A stretch of 64,000 nucleotides of DNA from the NCBI RefSeq assembly GCF_004349245.1, contig NZ_SMLC01000007.1, forward strand, positions 1 through 64,000, in the 5' to 3' direction. The stretch is from Actinomadura sp. 6K520 (GTDB lineage Bacteria > Actinomycetota > Actinomycetes > Streptosporangiales > Streptosporangiaceae). Position numbers and translations under genes: made by a program. A model generated the notes under the pieces. It made no database searches. It saw only the letters and a program-made list of their open reading frames with translations, and had not been told where the DNA came from. Positions 52 through 40,468 of the stretch are shown piece after piece (within the stretch, counting starts at the first letter, position 1; each line of letters begins with the position of its first letter).

Positions 52-124
52 GGGTCGCTAGCTCAATTGGCAGAGCTCCGGACTTTTAATCCGTAGGCTG
101 TGGGTTCGAGTCCCACGCGACCCA
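52..124 (+). tRNA. tRNA-Lys (anticodon UUU)
   Basis: The 73-nt cloverleaf has a 7-bp acceptor stem (GGGTCGC/GCGACCC) and discriminator A. The anticodon loop is CTTTTAA, which reads lysine codons, and the T-arm is GTGGGTTCGAGTCCCAC. No CCA is encoded. Its 3' part is duplicated at 40422-40468, so this gene is the chromosomal target of the adjacent integrase. The copy here stays complete after integration because the island supplies an identical 3' end. Confidence 0.97.
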
Positions 125-125
125 C
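79..125. repeat. attL: 47-bp direct repeat in the tRNA-Lys 3' end
   Basis: These 47 bases, from the anticodon arm through the end of the tRNA plus one base, are identical to 40422-40468. The match breaks on both sides (C/T on the left, T/C on the right). The same orientation, tRNA location and adjacent integrase make this the left attachment site. Confidence 0.95.
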
Positions 126-180: not shown

Positions 181-1707
181 CTACTCCTTCTCGTTCTGGG
201 AGGACGTGGGGAGGACGGAGGGCCGGGCTTCCTGAGCTGGGATCTTCCTTGGAACCAGTGCTGCGGCGGCTTCTGCGGCTTGGCGGGCGACTTCGGGGAG
301 GACGCTGGTGTAGGTGTCGGCGGTGATGGCGAGCGAGGAGTGCCGCAGCAGCGCCTGAACCAGCTTCATGTCCGCGCCACCGGCGAGCATCAACGTCGCG
401 GCGCCATGGCGAAGATCGTGCAGGCGAATGGGTGGCAGTCCGGCACCGTAGGCGAGCCGGGCGAACGCATCGGTCACGTGGTCAGGGTGCAGCGCCGAAC
501 CGTCTTCCCGGGTGAACACTTTTCCTGATTCCTGCCACGCCTGGCCCCACTCGGTCCTGGCCTGTTCCTGCCGCCGACGATGGGCTTCGAGCACGGTGAC
601 GGTGCCGGAGTCGAGTGGGATCGTGTCGTCGCCGGCGTCGGTCTTGGGGTGGCCGTCCTCGATCTCCTGGTAGGTGATCTTCACGCGGTTCTGCCGGACG
701 GCCAACGACGCCGCGGCCAAATCGAGGTCCGGCCATGCGAGCCCGCACGCCTCCCCGCGGCGCAGCCCCCGGAACGCCATCAGGTGAAACAGCGCGTACA
801 AAGGGTGGTCTGCGGCGTGATCGAGGAAGGCTCCGATCTGTTCGGGTGTCCACACCATCACCCGCGAAGGGCGCGGTAGCGACACCCAGACCTTGAACGC
901 ATTGACCGTACGGCCACCGGCTCGTTCCCGCTCCGCCAGTTCCCGCTCAAGGCCGGTCTGCCACGCGGTGACGCGTTCGCTGGTCCACACCAGTGCCTTG
1001 GGCCGCTTGCCTGTTTGGAGCTTGGTCAACTTCGCCACGTTAACCGCGACCAGGCCTTGCCGTACCGCATCCGCCAGAGCCGACCGCAGCGTCGCGCGGA
1101 TGCGCTGCATGGTCGCTGCCCCGACCGTCCGACGGTGAGGCGGAAGCCCGGCGAGTTCGGCGTGAGCGGCTCTGTGCGCGGCCTTGTCCCCAGAGCGCCA
1201 TGCCTGCTGAGTCGCAGCAAGCAATCGCCGGCGTTCCCCAGCCGCCCACAGGATGCGCTTGTTGTCGGCGTCGATCGCGGCGAACATCTCGTTCAGATGC
1301 GCAACGCGTAGCTGGTCCAGTTCGATGTGGCCCAGGTGGGGTTTGAGGTAGTACTCGATGTGCTCGCCATAGGATTTGCGGGTACTGCGGCGCAGACCGC
1401 CGTTGCCGACCAGCCACTCGTCGAGGTAATGCCCGACGGTGTACCGCACGCCCGGATCCAAGCCGCGCAACGCCCGGCAACGGGCATCCTCCAGAGCGTT
1501 CTCAGCGTCCGCTTGCGAGCTGAACCCGCCCCGGCGGATCCGGCGGCGTTTGCCGCCCGGAGCGGCGTCGAGTTCCAGGTAGAAGTACCAGGTACCGTGC
1601 CGCGGATTCCAGGCGCCGTCCTCGTGACGCAGCTGCGGACAGCGGGAAGCGAGTTCCTTTCCGTCCGCACCACGGCATTTACACCTCTTGTACGTCGACC
1701 CCTTCAT
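181..1707 (-). CDS. int: tyrosine site-specific integrase of the island
   Basis: This 508-aa phage-type integrase most likely catalyses recombination at the tRNA-Lys site. The N-terminal ~90 residues are a basic, cysteine-containing arm-binding region (C-x-C near residues 9-11). A core-binding SAM-like segment covers about 90-230. The catalytic domain runs about 285-475 with R316 (GLRRGE), K355 (HPKT), H430-x-x-R433 (HDLRHG), H456 (LLRHSS) and the nucleophile Y466 (TADTY). All catalytic residues are present. The stop lies 56 bp from attL, the usual arrangement for tRNA-targeting integrases. No xis-like gene lies upstream; IS debris begins about 200 bp away. A second, truncated integrase relic is at 3594-3880. 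Confidence 0.95.
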   Translation of the reverse strand: MKGSTYKRCKCRGADGKELASRCPQLRHEDGAWNPRHGTWYFYLELDAAPGGKRRRIRRGGFSSQADAENALEDARCRALRGLDPGVRYTVGHYLDEWLVGNGGLRRSTRKSYGEHIEYYLKPHLGHIELDQLRVAHLNEMFAAIDADNKRILWAAGERRRLLAATQQAWRSGDKAAHRAAHAELAGLPPHRRTVGAATMQRIRATLRSALADAVRQGLVAVNVAKLTKLQTGKRPKALVWTSERVTAWQTGLERELAERERAGGRTVNAFKVWVSLPRPSRVMVWTPEQIGAFLDHAADHPLYALFHLMAFRGLRRGEACGLAWPDLDLAAASLAVRQNRVKITYQEIEDGHPKTDAGDDTIPLDSGTVTVLEAHRRRQEQARTEWGQAWQESGKVFTREDGSALHPDHVTDAFARLAYGAGLPPIRLHDLRHGAATLMLAGGADMKLVQALLRHSSLAITADTYTSVLPEVARQAAEAAAALVPRKIPAQEARPSVLPTSSQNEKE

Positions 1708-2438: not shown

Positions 2439-3062
2439 TCAGTCAAATATTTGCTCAACATGCAGACTGTCCCCGATTGGAAAGCCTTCTGGGAAGGCGC
2501 GACACTGTACCCGTCGGACTAGAATATCGACTAGAAATTCTGTAATGGATCCTCGGTAATGCCAGAATTCTGGTTCCGACGCAACAACGACGGTCCATTC
2601 ATCTGGCGACCCCTGTGTGAGCCAGCAGCATCTGCTCCCATCTTCCGGCATCCCCCAAGCCATCAGACCACCTGCATCGGGATAGATGGGAAAAGGGAAA
2701 TCGTTCGCTGCTATCGATCTCACTTCCTCTACACCCTCACCTTGGCTTGGGGTGTAGGTATAGAGCAGAGTGGGGGTGAGGTTAGCAACAAACCGACTCT
2801 GAGTAGTTGCGTAGCGCACCAGATTTACGAGGCCATATTCGTTACCTGGCGGATCTGGTGTTCCCGGGTGCAAAATGGGAAGCCATTCATCAATCATCAA
2901 CAAAGGGTAGCGATTGGCCAGTTCTTTGTAATCGCTCGGCAGATCGGTCCCGAGTTGGCGCATCACCTTTTGCCAGTCTACGACCGGTGGATCGGCAGTT
3001 GGGGCACCGAGGTACTGTTCAAGAGGCACAGGGATCGTCATAGAGGATTGATGCCCCTTCAT
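2439..3062 (-). CDS. SMI1/KNR4 (SUKH) family immunity-like protein
   Basis: The 207-aa soluble protein (or 200 aa from the in-frame ATG at codon 8) has the SUKH signature: an N-terminal amphipathic helix, LPSDYKELANRYP at about residues 40-52, then a mixed alpha/beta body rich in W/Y/F with GSPDEW near 155. SUKH proteins commonly neutralise polymorphic or contact-dependent toxins. No toxin gene is beside it; both flanks are IS debris. By eye its base composition is lower in GC than the neighbourhood, suggesting separate acquisition. It is probably an orphan immunity gene (inference). Confidence 0.8.
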   Translation of the reverse strand: MKGHQSSMTIPVPLEQYLGAPTADPPVVDWQKVMRQLGTDLPSDYKELANRYPLLMIDEWLPILHPGTPDPPGNEYGLVNLVRYATTQSRFVANLTPTLLYTYTPSQGEGVEEVRSIAANDFPFPIYPDAGGLMAWGMPEDGSRCCWLTQGSPDEWTVVVASEPEFWHYRGSITEFLVDILVRRVQCRAFPEGFPIGDSLHVEQIFD

Positions 3063-4454: not shown

Positions 4455-4679
4455 GGTTCCGGTATCACGACACCACGAAACACGGGGGACGTCATCACCT
4501 CCGCCGACCCGGGGCGGTTCGCCTACTCAGAGCTTTGAGATCCACCAGCGATGGCGAGACTGGCCGATCTCGGCTATCGGTTGCCGTTTCACCGGCGAGA
4601 TGTCGGCGAGGGGATGGAGAATGCATGTGCCTGGTGCGCGCATGCAGATCCCGGGCAGACGCTCCTGGAGGGAAGTGGG

Positions 4680-7205
4680 ATGAAGGCGGAAGAGACCACT
4701 CTGCGTAAGCTGATCGGCGGCGAGCAGCAGTTCGTCGTCCCGCTTTACCAGCGCACGTACTCGTGGGGGTTCCGCCATCTCGACACGTTGTGGAACGACG
4801 TTGTGGATCAAGAGCGTGCGCTTGCGGACGGCCGCCCCAAGTCCCACTTCCTCGGGTCGGTGGTGCTTGCGCCTGGCCCCGCTCTCAGCCCCTCGCTGTC
4901 GCAGTGGGTCGTTGTCGACGGGCAGCAACGACTGACCACCTTGATGATCGCGCTTTGTGCGATACGCGATCACCAAGCCGCTGAGGATCCCTTGCACATC
5001 GAACGCATCAACGAGCTCCACTTGATCAATAAGTTCAAGCGCGGCAACATGCGCTACCGGCTATTGCCGACGCAGGTCGACCGGTCGGCAATGATCGCAT
5101 GCATCGAGGGCGATCACGACGGGCAGACGAGTGGCGCCATCGGCGACGCGTACCGCTTCTTCCGCGCCCGGCTCATCGACATCGACGCCCCGGCCGACCC
5201 GCATGACGTCAGCCGGATCGAGGAGGTGGTTCTGGATCACCTGGCTCTCGTTCAGATTGTCGTCGAGAAGGGCGACAACGCCTTTCGGATCTTCGAATCG
5301 CTTAACAACACCGGACTGCCGCTCAGTCCCGTCGACCTCATCCGCAACTACGTCTTTATGTGCCTGCCGACCCGCGGCGAGGAGGTGTACCGCAAATATT
5401 GGTACCCCTTTCAAGAGCGGCTACGAAGCGAGCACGGTACCAAGGCCCTCGAGACGCTGATGTACCAGGTTCTGGTCCTGGACCGAGGCGAAGAGGCCAC
5501 CTACGCCGACGCCTACCTCGGTCACCAGGAGATCCTGAGAGAAGCCTCCAGCGACGAAGCAGAAGTGGAAGCCTATGTCGCTGAGCTTGCGCGCCGGGCC
5601 CGTCATCTGGAAGTCATCCTCAGCCCGACCAAGGAAGCACACGAGCCGACGAGGGACCATCTGGCCTTCCTGAACGAGTGGCGCGCCACGACCGCCTACC
5701 CAGCGATCATGCGGTTGCTGGAGCTACGCGAAGACGGCGTACCGTCTGACGAGGTGGCTCAGGCGCTGAGCTACATCGAAAGCTTTTTCGTGCGCCGCAT
5801 GATCGCCGGGGTAACCACCAAGAACCTGAACCGGATCTTCCAGCGGCTGACCGGTCGGCTGACCGACGATACGGTGGCCGAGACGGTCCGGATCGAGTTG
5901 TCGCCCGAACGGCTGTACTGGCCTACCGACGAGGAACTGCGAGACGCAATCCGCACCAACGCCTTCTACTGGCGAGGGCAGGCCATACAGCGGAAGCTCG
6001 TGCTACGCCGGTTGGCCGATACCTTTGACCGCGGCGAACCGGTCCTGCTGACCTCCAAGAAGATCACCATCGAACATGTCATGCCGCAGCATCTCACCGA
6101 CGCCTGGCGTGCCGAGCTGGCGGCAGACGGCGAAGACCCGGCCAGAACGCACCGGGAGCTCGTCCACACCCTCGGTAATCTCACGCTCACCGCATATAAC
6201 TCCGAGTTGGGCGACATGGCATACAGAGACAAGCGTGACCGGCTCAGCCAGACCGGCATCGCGATGACACACGCGATCGTTCAGCAGCCGCGATGGAGGA
6301 GGACAGAGATTCTGGCCCGTGCTGATGACCTCGCCTCCCGCGCCCTCGCGATCTGGCCGGGCCCAGACGAACAGTCACGCGGAACAAGCCCGCGGCGCGA
6401 CTGGACGCTGTTGCATGACGCGATGGCCGCGATCCCATCCGGAACATGGACGACCTACACCGAACTCGCCCAGGTAGCCGGCTCGGCCCCCATGCCGGTA
6501 GCAGTACACGTCTCCACCACGCCGCTGCCCAACGCCCACCGAGTCCTCACCAACGACGGAACACCGCCCGAGGAAATCACCCGACCAGACGAAGCAAACA
6601 CCCGCACCGCCCGAGAGGTCCTCACTGAAGAGGGCATCGATTTCGATGAGCAAGGCCACGCCGACCTCAACAAACGCGTCAACGCCGTGGAACTCGCAGA
6701 CCTACTCGACCTTCCGGACGTCGCAGAATTTTCCACATCAGAACTTCAGGACGTCGACCCCGCCAGCCTGACCGAGCATCAACACCGATTCCACCGACAA
6801 CTCGCAGAACGAGGGGGGCCTGACATCTCCCGCGCTGTCTCGGACGTGATCGGCTGGTGGACGAAGCTCGCGGGAACGTTCTGGTACGGCACTTCCGCCA
6901 CGGGGCGCTGCACCCCCTACCTCAAGCACGACGGCACCGATTACTGGATGCTGAACATCTACCCCGAAGTCACAGAGGTCCCCTTCAGATCCCTCAAGCG
7001 GAGGACCCCATTCGACGACCCTCAGATGCGCGGGGAGCTGCGCCGACGCCTCAACCAAGCACCCCAGATCGAGATCCCCGAAGCCAAGCTCGATCTGTTC
7101 CCCAGCTTCCCCAACTCACTCCTGACCGATCCTGCCGTGTTGGACGTGGTGATCAGCACTCTCCATTGGTTCATCGATCGAGTACAACGACAAGAGCTCG
7201 CGTGA
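4680..7205 (+). CDS. DUF262-DUF1524 nuclease with internal alkyltransferase-like domain (GmrSD-like)
   Basis: The 841-aa cytoplasmic protein starts at ATG 4680 behind GGAGGGAAGTGGG. Residues ~1-230 are a DUF262/GmrS-type ParB-Srx-fold NTPase region (VPLYQRTYSW near 20-30, DGQQRLTTL at 80-88, FESLNNTGLPL near 205). DUF1524, an HNH nuclease of the GmrD type, follows with IEHVMPQ at ~463-469 and LGNLTLT near 503. Residues ~575-670 resemble an O6-alkylguanine-DNA alkyltransferase-like module (IPSGTWTTYTELA, PNAHRVL at ~616-622) in which the alkyl-acceptor cysteine is replaced. The C-terminal ~150 residues are an uncharacterised domain common in this family. GmrSD relatives are type IV restriction enzymes cleaving modified DNA. 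The phage-defence role here is inferred from family and island context. Confidence 0.88.
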   Translation: MKAEETTLRKLIGGEQQFVVPLYQRTYSWGFRHLDTLWNDVVDQERALADGRPKSHFLGSVVLAPGPALSPSLSQWVVVDGQQRLTTLMIALCAIRDHQAAEDPLHIERINELHLINKFKRGNMRYRLLPTQVDRSAMIACIEGDHDGQTSGAIGDAYRFFRARLIDIDAPADPHDVSRIEEVVLDHLALVQIVVEKGDNAFRIFESLNNTGLPLSPVDLIRNYVFMCLPTRGEEVYRKYWYPFQERLRSEHGTKALETLMYQVLVLDRGEEATYADAYLGHQEILREASSDEAEVEAYVAELARRARHLEVILSPTKEAHEPTRDHLAFLNEWRATTAYPAIMRLLELREDGVPSDEVAQALSYIESFFVRRMIAGVTTKNLNRIFQRLTGRLTDDTVAETVRIELSPERLYWPTDEELRDAIRTNAFYWRGQAIQRKLVLRRLADTFDRGEPVLLTSKKITIEHVMPQHLTDAWRAELAADGEDPARTHRELVHTLGNLTLTAYNSELGDMAYRDKRDRLSQTGIAMTHAIVQQPRWRRTEILARADDLASRALAIWPGPDEQSRGTSPRRDWTLLHDAMAAIPSGTWTTYTELAQVAGSAPMPVAVHVSTTPLPNAHRVLTNDGTPPEEITRPDEANTRTAREVLTEEGIDFDEQGHADLNKRVNAVELADLLDLPDVAEFSTSELQDVDPASLTEHQHRFHRQLAERGGPDISRAVSDVIGWWTKLAGTFWYGTSATGRCTPYLKHDGTDYWMLNIYPEVTEVPFRSLKRRTPFDDPQMRGELRRRLNQAPQIEIPEAKLDLFPSFPNSLLTDPAVLDVVISTLHWFIDRVQRQELA

Positions 7206-28287: not shown

Positions 28288-29250
28288 CTAGAAGTCAGGG
28301 CCGGGGCCGTAGACTGCACTGGCCTCATCCTTGCGGCCAAGCGCCCCCAGGTTCGCGCTCAGCCGGATGCGGACCCGTTCGGTCCGGTCGTCTTTCTTGC
28401 CCAGGAGCCGTTCGTACCGGTGCAGCACATCGGTATTCAACTCCCTGGCGGTCTCGTGGTCACCCATCTTCTGCAGCGTGATCGCGACATTTTCAGCCGC
28501 GAGCAGGGTCGACAGGTTGTCGGTTCCGAAGAGGCGCCGGTTTCGTTCGTGCACGTCCCGGTAGGTGGCGAGCGCCATCTCGTACTCGCCTAGCCCGAAG
28601 AGGCTGGTGGCGAGCTGGGTCGTGGCGTACAAGGTTGTCCTGTCGTCGCCGCCGAGAACGCGGGTGCAGACGCTTACGGTGTCCTGGCTCAACCGCAGCG
28701 CTTGGTGATAGTCCTCGACGTTATTGAAGCACCTGCAGAGATCCGCGGTCGCATGCAGTGTCACCGCATGGTTCGCGCCGTGGGCTTCGGTTCGCAGTTG
28801 CACCGTTTCACGCAGCAGGGGAAGCGCCGTGTTGCCGTCGCCGATGTCGAGCAGGCACAGCGCGCAGTACTCGGCGGCGCTAACCCGGTCCGCATGCCGC
28901 ATGCCTAGTTCCGCGCTCCAGCGGTGGTAGACGTCCTGGGCCAGGACCGCGCCGAGGTCGCTCCGGTTATTCGTGTGCAGATGCCACAGCAGGTCCAGCA
29001 CGAGAGCCCGGAACTGTTCTGGCTTCCCTATGGGTACGCCTGTCTGTGAGGTGAAGCCGAGCAGGACCCGCAGGTCCGATGTGAGCGTGTCCCAGTCATC
29101 CTCGGCGTCTCGGTCGGCTGGGTCGAGTGAGGGGACGGCGGCGAGTCGGTCCCGGGCCTGTTCGCATGCCCTCGCCAGGTCTGCGGTCTGGGTCCGGAAG
29201 ATCTCCTGGATGTCGCGGTGCGCGCGCTGGATCGTCTCGCCGGCTGTCAT
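28288..29250 (-). CDS. tetratricopeptide-repeat protein of the SARP-STAND operon
   Basis: The 320-aa protein consists of an N-terminal helical region and at least four kinesin-light-chain-like TPRs of about 42 residues (DIGDGNTALPLLRETVQL, NVEDYHQALRLSQDTVSV, GLGEYEMALATYRDVHER, KMGDHETARELNTDVLHR). It has no enzymatic motif. Its ATG overlaps the stop of the 1503-aa ATPase gene by four bases (ATGA), so it is co-translated with it and is a likely interaction partner or adaptor. The sequence after the last repeat ends VYGPGPDF; the gene appears complete. Confidence 0.88.
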   Translation of the reverse strand: MTAGETIQRAHRDIQEIFRTQTADLARACEQARDRLAAVPSLDPADRDAEDDWDTLTSDLRVLLGFTSQTGVPIGKPEQFRALVLDLLWHLHTNNRSDLGAVLAQDVYHRWSAELGMRHADRVSAAEYCALCLLDIGDGNTALPLLRETVQLRTEAHGANHAVTLHATADLCRCFNNVEDYHQALRLSQDTVSVCTRVLGGDDRTTLYATTQLATSLFGLGEYEMALATYRDVHERNRRLFGTDNLSTLLAAENVAITLQKMGDHETARELNTDVLHRYERLLGKKDDRTERVRIRLSANLGALGRKDEASAVYGPGPDF

Positions 29251-32200
29251 GCCTGGCGCTCCTCGGTGCTGTCGGCAAGGCGTTCAAGGCGTACCCCGTC
29301 GACAACCGGCGGGATCGTGCCGCCGGGTGCCATGCATGCCAGCCCGCGCCGGATGGCGTCCGCGAGAGTGGCCGCCACCTCGATCCCGGCGGCATCGGTC
29401 AGCGGTTCCGCTGCCGCCTCCAGCAGCCCCATGGCATCTCCCCAACTAGCAGCCGCTGATTGATACAGCGCGCGAAGCGCCGCACCGGGATCGGTTGCGA
29501 CGAGCACCGGGAACAGCCGGGCACGTACGTCGGCGAGTGCCCAGGTCTCCCAGCGGAAAGGAGCGCTTTGTTCCGTCTCGGAGTAGAGCGCTGCCGGATC
29601 GACAAGTCCGCGCAGGGACCGCGCTTCGGCGAGCCTGGACAAGGCATCGACTCGCCGTGCCGGGTCCTCGCGGCTGGCCGCTTCGATGATCTGGTTGCCG
29701 AGCGCACGAAGGTCCGCGGAGTACTCCGGGCGGGCATCCGCGGCGAAGGCCACGAGCCCGGCCGCCGCGGGTAGCGAACCCTTTCCGATCATGTCGCCGA
29801 CCTTGGCCTTGAACTCGGGGCTGAGCGGTTCTCCAGGTGCGGGCGTCACGAGGTCGACGACTGCGCCGTAACGCGGATCGGCGATCCGTACCCGTGCCGC
29901 ATTGGACCGGTAGCCGGGAACGGCCGTGCTGATCCGGAATTCCTGGTAGGCCGCCTGTGCTCGCGCGATGTCGAACAGCCAGTCACCGTCGTCCGCCCGG
30001 AGCAGGTTCTGGTGGGCTTCGGCGAAGAGTGTGTACGCTCTCCGCCTCGCGATGGATTCGTTCGCGTAGTAGCGCGACAGCCAGGTCCACATGGAGATGT
30101 GCATCGTGTGCTCGAGGAACGTGAGGTCGTTGAGCGCGTCCCAGTCTTGACGTCGGCAGCCGTACGAGCGGACGGCGACCTCGAAACGGACCTGATGATC
30201 GGGGCGCGCGTAGGCCCAGGCTCGCCTGTCGGTGTCACCCATCTCGACGTGCCAGCGGTATGGCTCAAGCTCCGCGAGTGCCCGGTCGAGTTCGCGTGAC
30301 AGCGCTTCCGCCGCGGGCCCGTGGTCGGGGGCGTGCCCGGCCCGGTGCAATCCGGCGAAGCCGACCGCACACTCACCCGGATCCGTGATCGCCCGCATCA
30401 GCCGGGCCGCACGAGCGAGATCGGTGGTCGCCTCGTGTTCGGCGAGTACGCGGAGAGTCCTGGCCAGGCTGTGCGGACCTCCGGCGACGGTGCGGACGGC
30501 GCGGACGACATCGGCCGGGTCCCGGTAGAAGTATCTCTTTGTGCACGCGGACCAGTCCTGGCTGAGGTTGTAGATCGCCATGCCGCCCTCGATGGAGTAG
30601 TGCCGGATCGGACGCTGCTCGCCGATGGGATGCACTGGGAACATCTCGAACTGCGGGGCATGACCGACAGACGGGGCACGTTTCCGCGTATAGCAGGCGG
30701 AGACCCATGTCGTTCCGGTCAGCGCCTCGATGTCGCCGGATCGAGCCGTGATCTCGTCGACCAGCCGGTCCGCCGCGCGCTGGTCGCCTTCATCCAGGCA
30801 GCGATGGGCGATGTCCGCCAGGACGGAGTATCTGTCCGCATTCACGTCGCGCTCGAGTTCGGGGACACCACGATCATCGACCGCGCCCGAAATGGCGAAT
30901 AGCGACGAGGTCCATCTCGTCTGAGAAATTTCCCTGGCGACCTCGGCCGCGCGGGCAAGATCGTGCCGGGCGAATTCCATGGCCGCGTCCCGGAGGCTCT
31001 CGTTCCGGTAGAGGTTCTCCAGCGAGCCCGCGGTGTCGGCCACGGCGGGAATGGCGGCGTATTCTTTTTCGATCAGCGGGAGCGCGGTCGCGCGGTCGGT
31101 GGGATCCAGCGTCGACAGTACGTGCACTTTGGCCCATCCGTCGCGGTTCCCCGCCGCCGCCATGAGCCGGTTGCCGAGGGAGCGTGCCCTGGCGGGTTCG
31201 CCCCACTGGGTCCACAGCTCTATTCCATGGAGAAAACCCGGGGCGCGGACTGTGCAGGGGACCGTGGCATCGAGCGTCGCCAGCAGCATCCGCGCCGTCA
31301 TCCGGTCTTCCGCGATCGCCGCGGCCGCCGCGGCGACGTTAGTGGCGAACTTCTCGCCGGCCGCCGCGTCGAACATCTCCGCTCGCAGCGCGGCGAGCCG
31401 GCCGGTGGCCTCGCCCGTGTCGTGCCGTCTCCACAGCGCGGCCAGCCGTGCCAGCCCGGGAAGCCGCGCGGCTGGGTTGAGACGGGCCAGGGCCCCTTCC
31501 GCCTCGCGCAGGATCGAGCGCACGTCCGGGGCCGCGGCGCGATCCGCGAGGTCCAGGTAGGCATCCGCCCGGTCGCGGTCGTCCCGGATACGGGCGATCA
31601 GTTCGCGTGCCCGTCGACCGTCGCCCGCAGCGCGGGCCGCCTCCCGGTACAGCGGGTCCGGTTGCGCCACCTTGCCGGACCCGATGGTCTCCGCGCCGTG
31701 CCGCCACAGGCGCAGCGCACGTTCGAGGTTTCGTGGAGCGAGCACCAGCGCCGCGGCCTTCATCGCCTCCCATGCGGAGGATTTGCGACCGTGGTCGCCG
31801 CCGGGATCGCCTGCGACGGTGACCGCGTTCTCCACCAGCAACTCGATCAGGTCCTCCACCGACGGATCGCCGGGGCCGGGCACGGCATAGCGGAGTATTT
31901 CCAGGATGGACGTGAACCGCTGAACCGATGGCGGGAGCGTCGCGGCCCGATCCAGCGCCTCCCGGAGCCTCCCCCGCCGGGCCAGCAGGCCGAGCGGCTT
32001 GGGGGGAAGCGCGGCATCGGCCTGGGCACCCTGATGGCGGATGACCCCCAGGTACACCACCTGAGCCAAGCCGTCCGTCAGGTCACCGGCACGCGAGACT
32101 CGTTCGGCGGCGTGATCGGCGAGTTCCATGAACCGCCAGTCGTTCCCGAACTCCGCCCGGATCGCCTGCCGCAGTCCGGGGCAGGCCAGGCTCACCAGGC

Positions 32201-33758
32201 CGCCCGCACCGTCCTTGTCCGAACGCTCCACATGAGCCGCCAGGTGCGCCAAGCCGTACCGGTCGACCTTTGGCCAGTCGACGTCGTCCCACGTGTCGGC
32301 GCCCGCGCGGTAGTGACGCACGATCCGCCCGTGCCACAGGGCCTCACGGACGTGGCATTCCGGGCATTCGTGGGCCGCCCGTTCGCTGACCAGGAATTCG
32401 GCGATCGACTCGTGGAAGAACGCGAGCCGGTCGTTGCGCCTGTCGAGCAGCCAGCGCATCCGGCTCACCACCACGTCGACCGAGTCGATCTCGACGCGGA
32501 CGCCGGACAGCTCCGTGAGCTGCTCGATGGTCAGCGGCTCGCGTGCCACGGCGAGGACGCCGAGGATGCGTCTTCCGACGCCCTCCCACGCCGGCGTGAC
32601 CGTGTCCGTCGGCGCTTGCGGGTCCTCGATGAGCTGCATGCCGAGTTGCTCGATATCCCGGCGGGCGGTCTCCGCGAAGAAGCCGTAGATGTCCGCGAGA
32701 TCGGATCCGAAGTCGTCCAGCTTCAGCAGCTTGGCGACGAGGTCGTCGTTGTGGTCGGCGGACGCGTCATTCAGCGCGTGCGCGTAGCTCGCGAGGTACT
32801 GGAAGTTTCCCGACGCGTGCCGCGCCACCCGCTGCCGGAACTGGTCCGGAATGAGCCCGTTGGCCGCCAGCTCCCGCTCCGCGTGCGAGGTGCCGAGCGC
32901 GGTCTCGGCGTACTTGACCAGGTCGGCGCGAACCCGCGTGTCGGCGAGGTCGAGTTCGATCCTGGTGAGCATCGGACGCCGACCCAGCAGGTCCAGCGCC
33001 CGGTGCGGCCGGGACGTGATGACCAGGCGCACGTTGGGTGGCGGGGGAGTTCCGGCGCTCAGCCAGTTGATGAGCCCGTCGCCCTCACCGGACCGGGCGG
33101 CGTCGTCGAGCCCGTCTATCAGGACCACAATCCGGGCCGCTGGATTCTGCTCGAGCAGGACCTTCGCGGGGGCCCACAGCGCCAGGTAGGCGAGGTTGTG
33201 GGGCTCCAGCAGCCGGGGCTCCAGCTGGGCCGTTCCGATCCGCACTCCGGTAACGACGCCGTCGCCTTCCACGCGCCCGACTCGCTGCTCTACATCCAGG
33301 ATGGAATGATCCGGGTCGCCAGCATGCATGGCGGTCTCGTGGAACGGGGAGACGACGAGGTCGTCGATCGTGACCCCGATGGCGCTCCCGCCGGGTCCGA
33401 CCTGGTCGATGTCCATCTGGACGACGATCTTCAGCCGCTCCAGGGCGAATGCCGCTGGATGCCGCCGGGCGAGCTGGTGCCCGACCGAGAGCAGGAATGA
33501 CGTCACGTCGCCGGGAGCGTGGACACCCTTGTCGGGCTGTCCGATGAAGTACCGCAGCCAGTCGTCGCGGTCTCTGGCGAGGCCGCAGGCCAGGGTGGTC
33601 TTGCCCGCACCCGGTTCTCCCGTCAGGAGCACGAACCGGCAGGCGTCTTCGGCGACAGCGGACTCGATGCCCTCCACCATCCAGCGCCGATCGATGAAGT
33701 TCACTCCGGTACGGTCACGGATGAACGCCTCGAACGGCCGGTCGTCCTGCGGCTCCAC
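29247..33758 (-). CDS. very large NACHT/STAND-type ATPase with alpha-solenoid sensor
   Basis: This 1503-aa protein starts at GTG 33758. Walker A is GEPGAGKTT at 47-55, Walker B is VVLIDGLDD at 211-219, a sensor-like LVITSRP lies at 245-251, and a winged-helix-like region follows with FFHESIAEFLV near 460. From about 520 to the end there are no domain names I can assign. The sequence is helical and alanine/arginine-rich with degenerate ~35-residue repeats, as in the ligand-sensing solenoids of STAND regulators and Avs/NLR-like defence proteins. No effector nuclease, TIR or protease domain is visible. It sits between a SARP-like gene and a TPR gene with 2-bp and overlapping junctions. Confidence 0.88.
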   Translation of the reverse strand: MEPQDDRPFEAFIRDRTGVNFIDRRWMVEGIESAVAEDACRFVLLTGEPGAGKTTLACGLARDRDDWLRYFIGQPDKGVHAPGDVTSFLLSVGHQLARRHPAAFALERLKIVVQMDIDQVGPGGSAIGVTIDDLVVSPFHETAMHAGDPDHSILDVEQRVGRVEGDGVVTGVRIGTAQLEPRLLEPHNLAYLALWAPAKVLLEQNPAARIVVLIDGLDDAARSGEGDGLINWLSAGTPPPPNVRLVITSRPHRALDLLGRRPMLTRIELDLADTRVRADLVKYAETALGTSHAERELAANGLIPDQFRQRVARHASGNFQYLASYAHALNDASADHNDDLVAKLLKLDDFGSDLADIYGFFAETARRDIEQLGMQLIEDPQAPTDTVTPAWEGVGRRILGVLAVAREPLTIEQLTELSGVRVEIDSVDVVVSRMRWLLDRRNDRLAFFHESIAEFLVSERAAHECPECHVREALWHGRIVRHYRAGADTWDDVDWPKVDRYGLAHLAAHVERSDKDGAGGLVSLACPGLRQAIRAEFGNDWRFMELADHAAERVSRAGDLTDGLAQVVYLGVIRHQGAQADAALPPKPLGLLARRGRLREALDRAATLPPSVQRFTSILEILRYAVPGPGDPSVEDLIELLVENAVTVAGDPGGDHGRKSSAWEAMKAAALVLAPRNLERALRLWRHGAETIGSGKVAQPDPLYREAARAAGDGRRARELIARIRDDRDRADAYLDLADRAAAPDVRSILREAEGALARLNPAARLPGLARLAALWRRHDTGEATGRLAALRAEMFDAAAGEKFATNVAAAAAAIAEDRMTARMLLATLDATVPCTVRAPGFLHGIELWTQWGEPARARSLGNRLMAAAGNRDGWAKVHVLSTLDPTDRATALPLIEKEYAAIPAVADTAGSLENLYRNESLRDAAMEFARHDLARAAEVAREISQTRWTSSLFAISGAVDDRGVPELERDVNADRYSVLADIAHRCLDEGDQRAADRLVDEITARSGDIEALTGTTWVSACYTRKRAPSVGHAPQFEMFPVHPIGEQRPIRHYSIEGGMAIYNLSQDWSACTKRYFYRDPADVVRAVRTVAGGPHSLARTLRVLAEHEATTDLARAARLMRAITDPGECAVGFAGLHRAGHAPDHGPAAEALSRELDRALAELEPYRWHVEMGDTDRRAWAYARPDHQVRFEVAVRSYGCRRQDWDALNDLTFLEHTMHISMWTWLSRYYANESIARRRAYTLFAEAHQNLLRADDGDWLFDIARAQAAYQEFRISTAVPGYRSNAARVRIADPRYGAVVDLVTPAPGEPLSPEFKAKVGDMIGKGSLPAAAGLVAFAADARPEYSADLRALGNQIIEAASREDPARRVDALSRLAEARSLRGLVDPAALYSETEQSAPFRWETWALADVRARLFPVLVATDPGAALRALYQSAAASWGDAMGLLEAAAEPLTDAAGIEVAATLADAIRRGLACMAPGGTIPPVVDGVRLERLADSTEERQA

Positions 33759-40421: not shown

Positions 40422-40468
40422 CGGACTTTTAATCCGTAGGCTGTGGGTTCGAGTCCCACGCGACCCAC
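40422..40468. repeat. attR: 47-bp direct repeat (tRNA-Lys 3' fragment)
   Basis: This block is identical to 79-125 but preceded by unrelated sequence, so no tRNA can form here. It marks the right end of the island. Confidence 0.95.

Follow-up and report, generated by a model that had tools for sequence, protein, structure and literature searches.

How does a type IV restriction enzyme of the GmrSD type select the nucleic acid that it attacks? The question is raised by a gene in a 64,000-nt stretch of Actinomadura sp. 6K520 (RefSeq assembly GCF_004349245.1, contig NZ_SMLC01000007.1, positions 1 to 64,000 of the forward strand), subsequently named the window. The encoded protein is a single-chain GmrSD-type protein composed of DUF262, DUF1524, a cysteine-less domain with the fold of O6-alkylguanine alkyltransferases (AGT) and alkyltransferase-like proteins (ATL), and a tail of ~160 residues. 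An original prediction, made from the letters of the window, had described it as a nuclease with a built-in reader for alkylated or hypermodified guanine. We favor the explanation that the ATL-derived domain is the target-recognition module of a GmrSD-type IV restriction enzyme on a ~40-kb tRNA-Lys element of Actinomadura, and estimate its probability at roughly 0.6. According to this model, DUF262 would bind and hydrolyse nucleotide and the HNH-type DUF1524 would cut DNA; the ATL-derived domain would select the nucleic acid that is bound and thereby license cutting. DNA cleavage driven by nucleoside triphosphates is presumed for the window enzyme from its family, and the position of the domain and its re-use in other effectors suggest that it may act as a reader. 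The domain would represent a restriction-associated branch of the AGT/ATL superfamily that lost the Cys and, in most members, the Arg finger, acquired an invariant Trp and also occurs in McrBC and HEPN-like proteins. Computation shows the order of the domains, the fold family, which residues were lost and gained, the three effector types and McrC in the same loci.

The features of a GmrSD protein are present in the window protein: an N-terminal DUF262 with D-G-Q-Q-R and a DUF1524 with an HNH-type motif. Both domains carry intact motifs, V-D-G-Q-Q-R (aa 122) and F-E-S-L-N-N-T-G in DUF262, I-E-H-V-M-P and H-T-L-G-N-L-T-L-T in DUF1524. The best PADLOC match spans aa 54–602 (1.6e-136), and a search of the protein against NCBIfam gave no match at 0.01. 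Behind DUF1524, PF01035 (DNA_binding_1) matched aa 623–695 with an E-value of 4.4e-5; with 23.7 bits the whole protein stays below the curated cut-off of 27, and the isolated 105-aa domain reaches 28.6 bits, above this cut-off. The motif L-P-N-A-H-R-V-L is located at aa 659–666; aligned to AGT and ATL sequences, its Asn corresponds to the Pro and its Ala to the Cys. A domain profile of 15 rows, built from the window and its relatives including four McrB rows, matched the window protein with 2.8e-41, the window itself being one of these rows. In a search of all solved structures with this profile, Schizosaccharomyces pombe Atl1 (3gva) ranked first (4.3e-10), followed by 2kif (4.5e-6), a Vibrio protein that was deposited as a methyltransferase yet has a Trp at the Cys position. 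Cys-bearing AGTs ranked after these two (1.2e-3 or worse).

The AlphaFold model of aa 604–884 has a mean pLDDT of 52, with moderate values in the domain (10-residue blocks of 51–87 and one dip to 44). Foldseek placed 3gva, 2kif and 3gx4 on top (probability 1.00, E 3e-3 to 6e-3); no match reached 1e-3, and the first 40 rows were all AGT/ATL structures. VIA-align superimposed 97 residues of the domain model on the Atl1–DNA complex 3gx4 (Z 12.4, root-mean-square deviation 2.6 Å), a match that is not wholly independent of sequence, as the rows given to AlphaFold included a free-standing ATL and an AGT, one of each. Judged from profiles and model, the predicted AGT C-terminal-domain fold in the window protein is real, and the domain is not a chance match because at E<=1e-15 the profile detects it in 86 out of the 341 genomes that represent the taxonomic family.

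We compared 107 domains located in large defence-type proteins, namely 52 GmrSD (including the window), 41 McrB and 14 HEPN-like proteins, with 22 canonical rows of free-standing proteins (14 Cys-type, 8 Trp-type). The classes were assigned via motif searches (DUF262, P-loop, HEPN-type motif) and were checked with Pfam for a part of the proteins. The 107 remain from 115 domain rows after 8 fragments and free-standing forms were set aside, and the 115 rows are related sequences, not independent events. The canonical rows are those reached by the same profile in the loci at hand, a set without two AGT loci of the window's genome (L022, L023), which the profile missed. Because P-C-H-R or P-W-x-R served as the label of each canonical row, the counts of Pro, Cys and Trp follow from the labelling; those of Arg finger, Tyr and Val do not.

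The alkyl-acceptor Cys is present in none of the 107 restriction-linked rows: the position is Ala in the window, in 45/52 GmrSD and in 13/14 HEPN-like rows, and Trp in 29/41 McrB rows. The preceding Pro is likewise absent from all 107, compared with 22/22 canonical rows, where its presence follows from selection. The H-R motif retains its Arg in 106/107. At the finger position, where gap placement is uncertain, Arg occurs in only 6 of the 107 (4 GmrSD, 2 McrB) versus 22/22 canonical rows; a smaller earlier comparison had given 3/40 versus 22/22. It is absent in the window protein, which has neither Arg nor Lys between the Tyr and the H-R motif, a finding that does not depend on gap placement. 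The segment from the Tyr to the Cys position measures 25 residues in the window, 27–28 in Trp-type ATLs and 30–31 in Cys-type rows. The surroundings of the recognition helix are devoid of Arg in 42/52 GmrSD and 14/14 HEPN-like but only 18/41 McrB rows; a displaced Arg is possible in the latter. The Tyr that supports base flipping, Tyr636 in the window, is found in 43/52 GmrSD, 14/14 HEPN-like, 3/41 McrB and 22/22 canonical rows. Three residues ahead of it, all 107 restriction-linked rows and none of the 22 canonical ones (21 Val, 1 Thr) have a Trp, in a set biased to Trp-bearing rows by a collecting profile that already held this Trp as invariant. Three of the four GmrSD rows with a finger Arg belong to the six that end <=17 residues past the domain and lack the tail.

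A helix-turn-helix with Arg finger and Tyr is conserved across AGTs and ATLs, and most ATLs have Trp in place of Cys, according to the relevant part of PMC10779285. By these criteria the ATL-derived domain lacks one defining ATL feature, the Arg finger. It may recognize something in or near the AGT/ATL pocket. In a tree of 67 rows and 117 columns the 22 canonical rows split from the 45 others on a long branch with support 100/100, which makes a single origin of the restriction-associated branch likely; branches are long and columns few, and the forks among the 45 are not resolved. Besides, we observed five Trp-bearing forms outside the three effector classes (L123:6549-6896, L128:5180-6550, L129:2608-3300, L052 and L059). 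Three of them (L128, L129, L059) keep the finger-position Arg with Ala or Pro replacing the Cys and are perhaps intermediates.

The original prediction is thus borne out for the GmrSD-type nuclease, for the AGT/ATL-like module, for which a structural match was sought via profile, Foldseek and VIA-align and found, and for the replacement of the alkyl acceptor in P-N-A-H-R. Occurrence of the domain in proteins lacking the HNH motif had been named there as a point against it; such proteins exist, as the domain is found in McrB and HEPN-like proteins. We take this spread to favor, not to contradict, a portable recognition module.

The domain was found in 26/65 genomes of the genus at E<=1e-12 and, family-wide (E<=1e-15), in 29/68 genera; every match listed falls within a long open frame (413–1127 aa). 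A profile search of genome contigs yielded three loci, one Actinomadura GmrSD, a free-standing Trp-type ATL and a free-standing Cys-type AGT. In McrB proteins the ATL-like domain precedes the GTPase. McrC is present in 41/41 McrB-class loci and was confirmed by Pfam in both proteins scanned (2/2); it lies directly downstream of McrB in all 16 position-checked loci, within a few bases in 15. At L120, McrC follows 289 bases behind an McrB frame without P-loop match, which is apparently cut short and was counted among the 8 set-aside rows. All five McrB-class proteins scanned contain the McrB-type AAA+ domain (AAA_5), and the NCBIfam McrB model matched L243 with 2.2e-41, below the model cut-off. 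Pairwise matches between window and McrB domains are good for L029 (1.3e-14) and the L033 McrB (7.6e-10). McrB and HEPN-like proteins share a further region ahead of the domain (hhalign 99.9%), Mrr_N by Pfam, above cut-off only in L243. Three GmrSD proteins from other taxonomic families carry a RAMA domain (PF18755, 3e-17 to 1e-14) between DUF1524 and the ATL-like domain; these proteins, with two reader-like modules each, are encoded at L124:4059-6434, L125:4965-7415 and L126:1004-3433.

Several neighborhoods of these relatives may be recorded. An Eco57I-like methylase gene lies near ATL-McrB and McrC in 14/41 McrB loci (e.g. L033, L119, L243, L245, L250), and 11 of these 14 also have a SNF2-type helicase; with flanks of ~5 kb in many loci, these neighbor counts are lower bounds. 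The combination suggests a larger multi-gene system. HsdM-like genes occur in 4/14 HEPN-class loci. In two cases (L027:4668-6581, own genome, contig C409, and L030:7346-9259) the Mrr_N-like/ATL-like/HEPN-like protein is encoded near an HsdM-like N6-methylase gene and, by eye, beside an HsdS-like gene without Pfam match and a coiled-coil AAA+ gene. The HEPN-like protein is possibly a toxin that guards the restriction locus. Two GmrSD-ATL genes (L105:4965-7772 and L041:3881-6764) look, by eye, as if frameshifts had broken them within or ahead of the ATL-like domain. A relative on a Streptomyces plasmid (WP_331726105.1), whose annotation says no more than DUF262 protein, has type I-E CRISPR genes at a distance of ~6 kb; on this plasmid the GmrSD gene is followed by an SMI1/KNR4 gene (L210:10739-11677). 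None of 80 GmrSD loci on viral contigs (best 80 of 105) carries the ATL-like domain; annotated phages gave no match to the ATL-tail part at 1e-5, and three single queries of viral contigs no ATL-tail relative.

Features of the window discussed in the text (positions in the window; aa, residues)
Feature	Position	Strand	Remarks
GmrSD-type single-chain gene	4680..7205	+	841 aa from ATG 4680
Enclosing open frame	4551-7205	+	884 aa, begins at ATG 4551
GmrSD_N / DUF262	4704..5357	+	PF03235, aa 52-269 of open frame, E 8.5e-33
GmrSD_C / DUF1524 (HNH-type)	5919..6335	+	PF07510, aa 457-595, E 1.2e-24
ATL-like (AGT-fold) domain	6399..6713	+	aa 617-721 of open frame; profile, PF01035, PDB profile and fold matches
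Trp633	6447..6449	+	invariant in restriction-linked rows; Val in 21/22 canonical AGT/ATL rows
N-A-H-R	6531..6542	+	Asn and Ala replace Pro and Cys of AGT P-C-H-R
C-terminal tail, ~160 aa	6714..7202	+	without Pfam family match
tRNA-Lys	52-125		
Tyrosine recombinase gene	181-1707		PF00589, 3.1e-20
Gene with weak SUKH (SMI1/KNR4) match	2439-3062	-	below Pfam cut-off
NACHT/STAND-type NTPase gene	29247-33758	-	1503 aa, NTPase N-terminal
Repeat of tRNA-Lys end	40422-40468		exact copy of the final 47 bases

ATG 4680 is probably the true start of the gene (Table): it is favored because the equivalent Met is the start in 5/8 homologues compared and a sixth starts one residue earlier, and because GAGGGA stands directly 5′ of it. 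In the remaining two an upstream extension precedes this Met. The window genome comprises 8.19 Mb in 445 contigs. At the left end of the window a tRNA-Lys is followed by the recombinase gene, and the last 47 bases of this tRNA are repeated exactly further right; sequence comparison therefore places the GmrSD gene most likely on an integrative element of ~40.3 kb. The NACHT/STAND-type gene on the same putative element is possibly a further defence gene. The gene with the weak SUKH match lies near the GmrSD gene.

No family was found in the ~160-aa tail by a Pfam scan. Its AlphaFold confidence is mostly <55, with only two tail-bearing rows in the input. Comparison of GmrSD and HEPN-like tails with hhalign gave a probability of 63% (E 7e-5), so that the former is possibly a distant relative of the latter. 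The UEV domain of TSG101 was considered as fold of the tail and set aside (weak matches, Z under 4). The tail may share the task of target recognition.

The module reading is favored because DUF262 and DUF1524 are intact, the domain has an ATL fold and is shared among 52 GmrSD, 41 McrB and 14 HEPN-like proteins, and McrC is found in 41/41 McrB loci; also because of the RAMA-ATL GmrSD proteins and the probable integrative element with its NACHT-type gene. Precedents add to this, as far as the sections concerned of the two papers go: winged-helix domains serve as methyl-adenine readers fused to different nucleases (PMC11037411), and the specificity domains of McrB proteins are exchangeable (PMC11090510). 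Several points weigh against it. The ATL assignment of the McrB proteins rests on our own profile with its four McrB rows and on pairwise matches, which are weak for L031 and L032 (4e-4 to 7e-4); PF01035 matched L029 with 4.7e-4 and had no match in L243 or L264 at 1e-3; for L031 and L033 it does not appear in the top 25 Pfam matches. The HEPN assignment is tentative, with Pfam matches below cut-off in two of four proteins scanned (L027, L212) and absent from L223 and L234. Specific base reading could have been lost along with the Arg finger, and the tail, without an assigned fold, could be the real reader. Modification sensing by the GmrSD enzyme BrxU is described as unclear in the relevant passage of PMC12409352, and with GmrSD sensing itself open DUF262 alone could suffice. 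We consider it possible, although on balance we would rather bet against it, that the ATL branch without Cys, mostly without Arg finger and with the invariant Trp is a portable recognition part common to actinobacterial GmrSD, McrBC and HEPN-like proteins, which would read a foreign nucleic-acid mark or state by a non-ATL mode in which the Trp perhaps substitutes for the finger.

Among the other explanations, the most serious is that the domain is a general winged-helix tether to DNA and that specificity resides in DUF262 or the tail. The loss of the Arg finger would fit, AGTs bind DNA via their helix-turn-helix without sequence specificity (as stated in part of PMC10779285), and the nearest solved relatives DndI and SspE are, in the portions of the literature concerned, DUF262 proteins of phosphorothioate-sensing systems. 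Furthermore, of 662 matching plasmid records a single one contains a place that covers 80% of the query; therefore many relatives seem to manage without this part. A mere tether would, however, account neither for the H-R core and invariant Trp (107/107) of domains from three effector families nor for the use of the domain ahead of the McrB GTPase, and we regard this explanation as doubtful. For the conceivable case of phosphorothioate sensing as in DndI and SspE, the DndC family (TIGR03183) was not found in the window genome (0/1, 445 contigs), in a search without positive control (0/14 control genomes past the cut-off) that did not include ssp genes.

The ligand named in the original prediction is still less probable, and we think it unlikely that flipping and binding of O6-alkylated or hypermodified guanine of phage DNA by the domain, in the manner of ATLs, sets off the nuclease. 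ATLs do share the fold and are the closest solved relatives, the H-R Arg is nearly always kept, the Tyr is present in the window and most GmrSD rows, and a protein that binds without repairing would be expected to lack the Cys. However, the finger Arg is missing in 101 of the 107 rows, the window among them, the Tyr is rare in McrB, the Tyr-to-Cys segment of the window is shorter than in both canonical types, and we found nothing that ties the domain to guanine. The idea of a built-in reader is thus retained in its reader-like placement but not in the ATL-style reading of guanine. The HEPN fold is typical of RNases. That the domain senses a cue other than intact DNA (a nucleotide, RNA or a protein partner, for instance a repair factor) and activates various toxic or nuclease effectors appears improbable: HEPN-like proteins share it, and ATLs act partly via partner proteins (PMC10779285, in part), but DNA restriction families make up most of the 107 rows, with 41 McrB (McrC in the locus) and 52 GmrSD, and no partner is known. 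A working alkyltransferase would match the AGT fold, but the acceptor Cys is lacking from all 107 rows and the window has N-A-H-R; we rejected this activity and give it practically no chance.

If the domain is the target-recognition module that we propose, a DNA-repair sensor has been turned into an immune sensor. With a DNA-bound solved relative and clear residue signatures, the domain offers a handle on GmrSD recognition, whose mode in BrxU is given as unclear (PMC12409352, passage cited above). Its presence in GmrSD, McrB and HEPN-like proteins allows swaps, mutations and binding tests of one and the same module in three systems.

Among known systems, DndI, SspE and BrxU are the nearest solved structures to the full-length AlphaFold model (mean pLDDT 63.6), with 1.0e-17 (9jfl), 1.3e-12 (7drs) and 7.2e-6 (7p9m), respectively. 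We know of no ATL domain in any of the three. ATL proteins (S. pombe Atl1 and those of E. coli and Vibrio) are closest in sequence and structure, with the same fold, no Cys and the H-R core. However, they are free-standing, keep Arg finger and Tyr, and have Val (8/8 Trp-type rows) where the restriction-linked branch has Trp. Archaeal AGT-EndoV and ATL-EndoV fusions (PMC10779285, in the part concerned) also join an AGT/ATL domain to a nuclease, but to a repair nuclease, and the AGT version repairs O6-alkylguanine. The McrBC systems with exchangeable specificity domains (PMC11090510) are comparable to our 41 loci with an ATL-like domain before the McrB GTPase and McrC in the locus; that census does not use the terms MGMT, ATL and DNA_binding_1 in its main text. 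Several GmrSD homologues, most of them from Streptomyces, contain PF01035, their extra domains being C-terminal, as described in the pertinent part of Machnicka et al. 2015 (PMC4619093), the only paper among the best-ranked matches of an open-access literature search to report this family in a restriction enzyme. The passages of that paper on GmrSD homologues do not mention the lost Cys, the lost Arg finger, the Trp, the tail or the sharing with McrB and HEPN-like proteins, and the same best-ranked matches contain no report of the Trp, of a lost Cys or finger, or of McrB or HEPN proteins with this module. The architecture of PF01035 plus GmrSD has accordingly been in print since 2015 (PMC4619093) and is not new; the novelty is an unusual recognition module on a known enzyme class.

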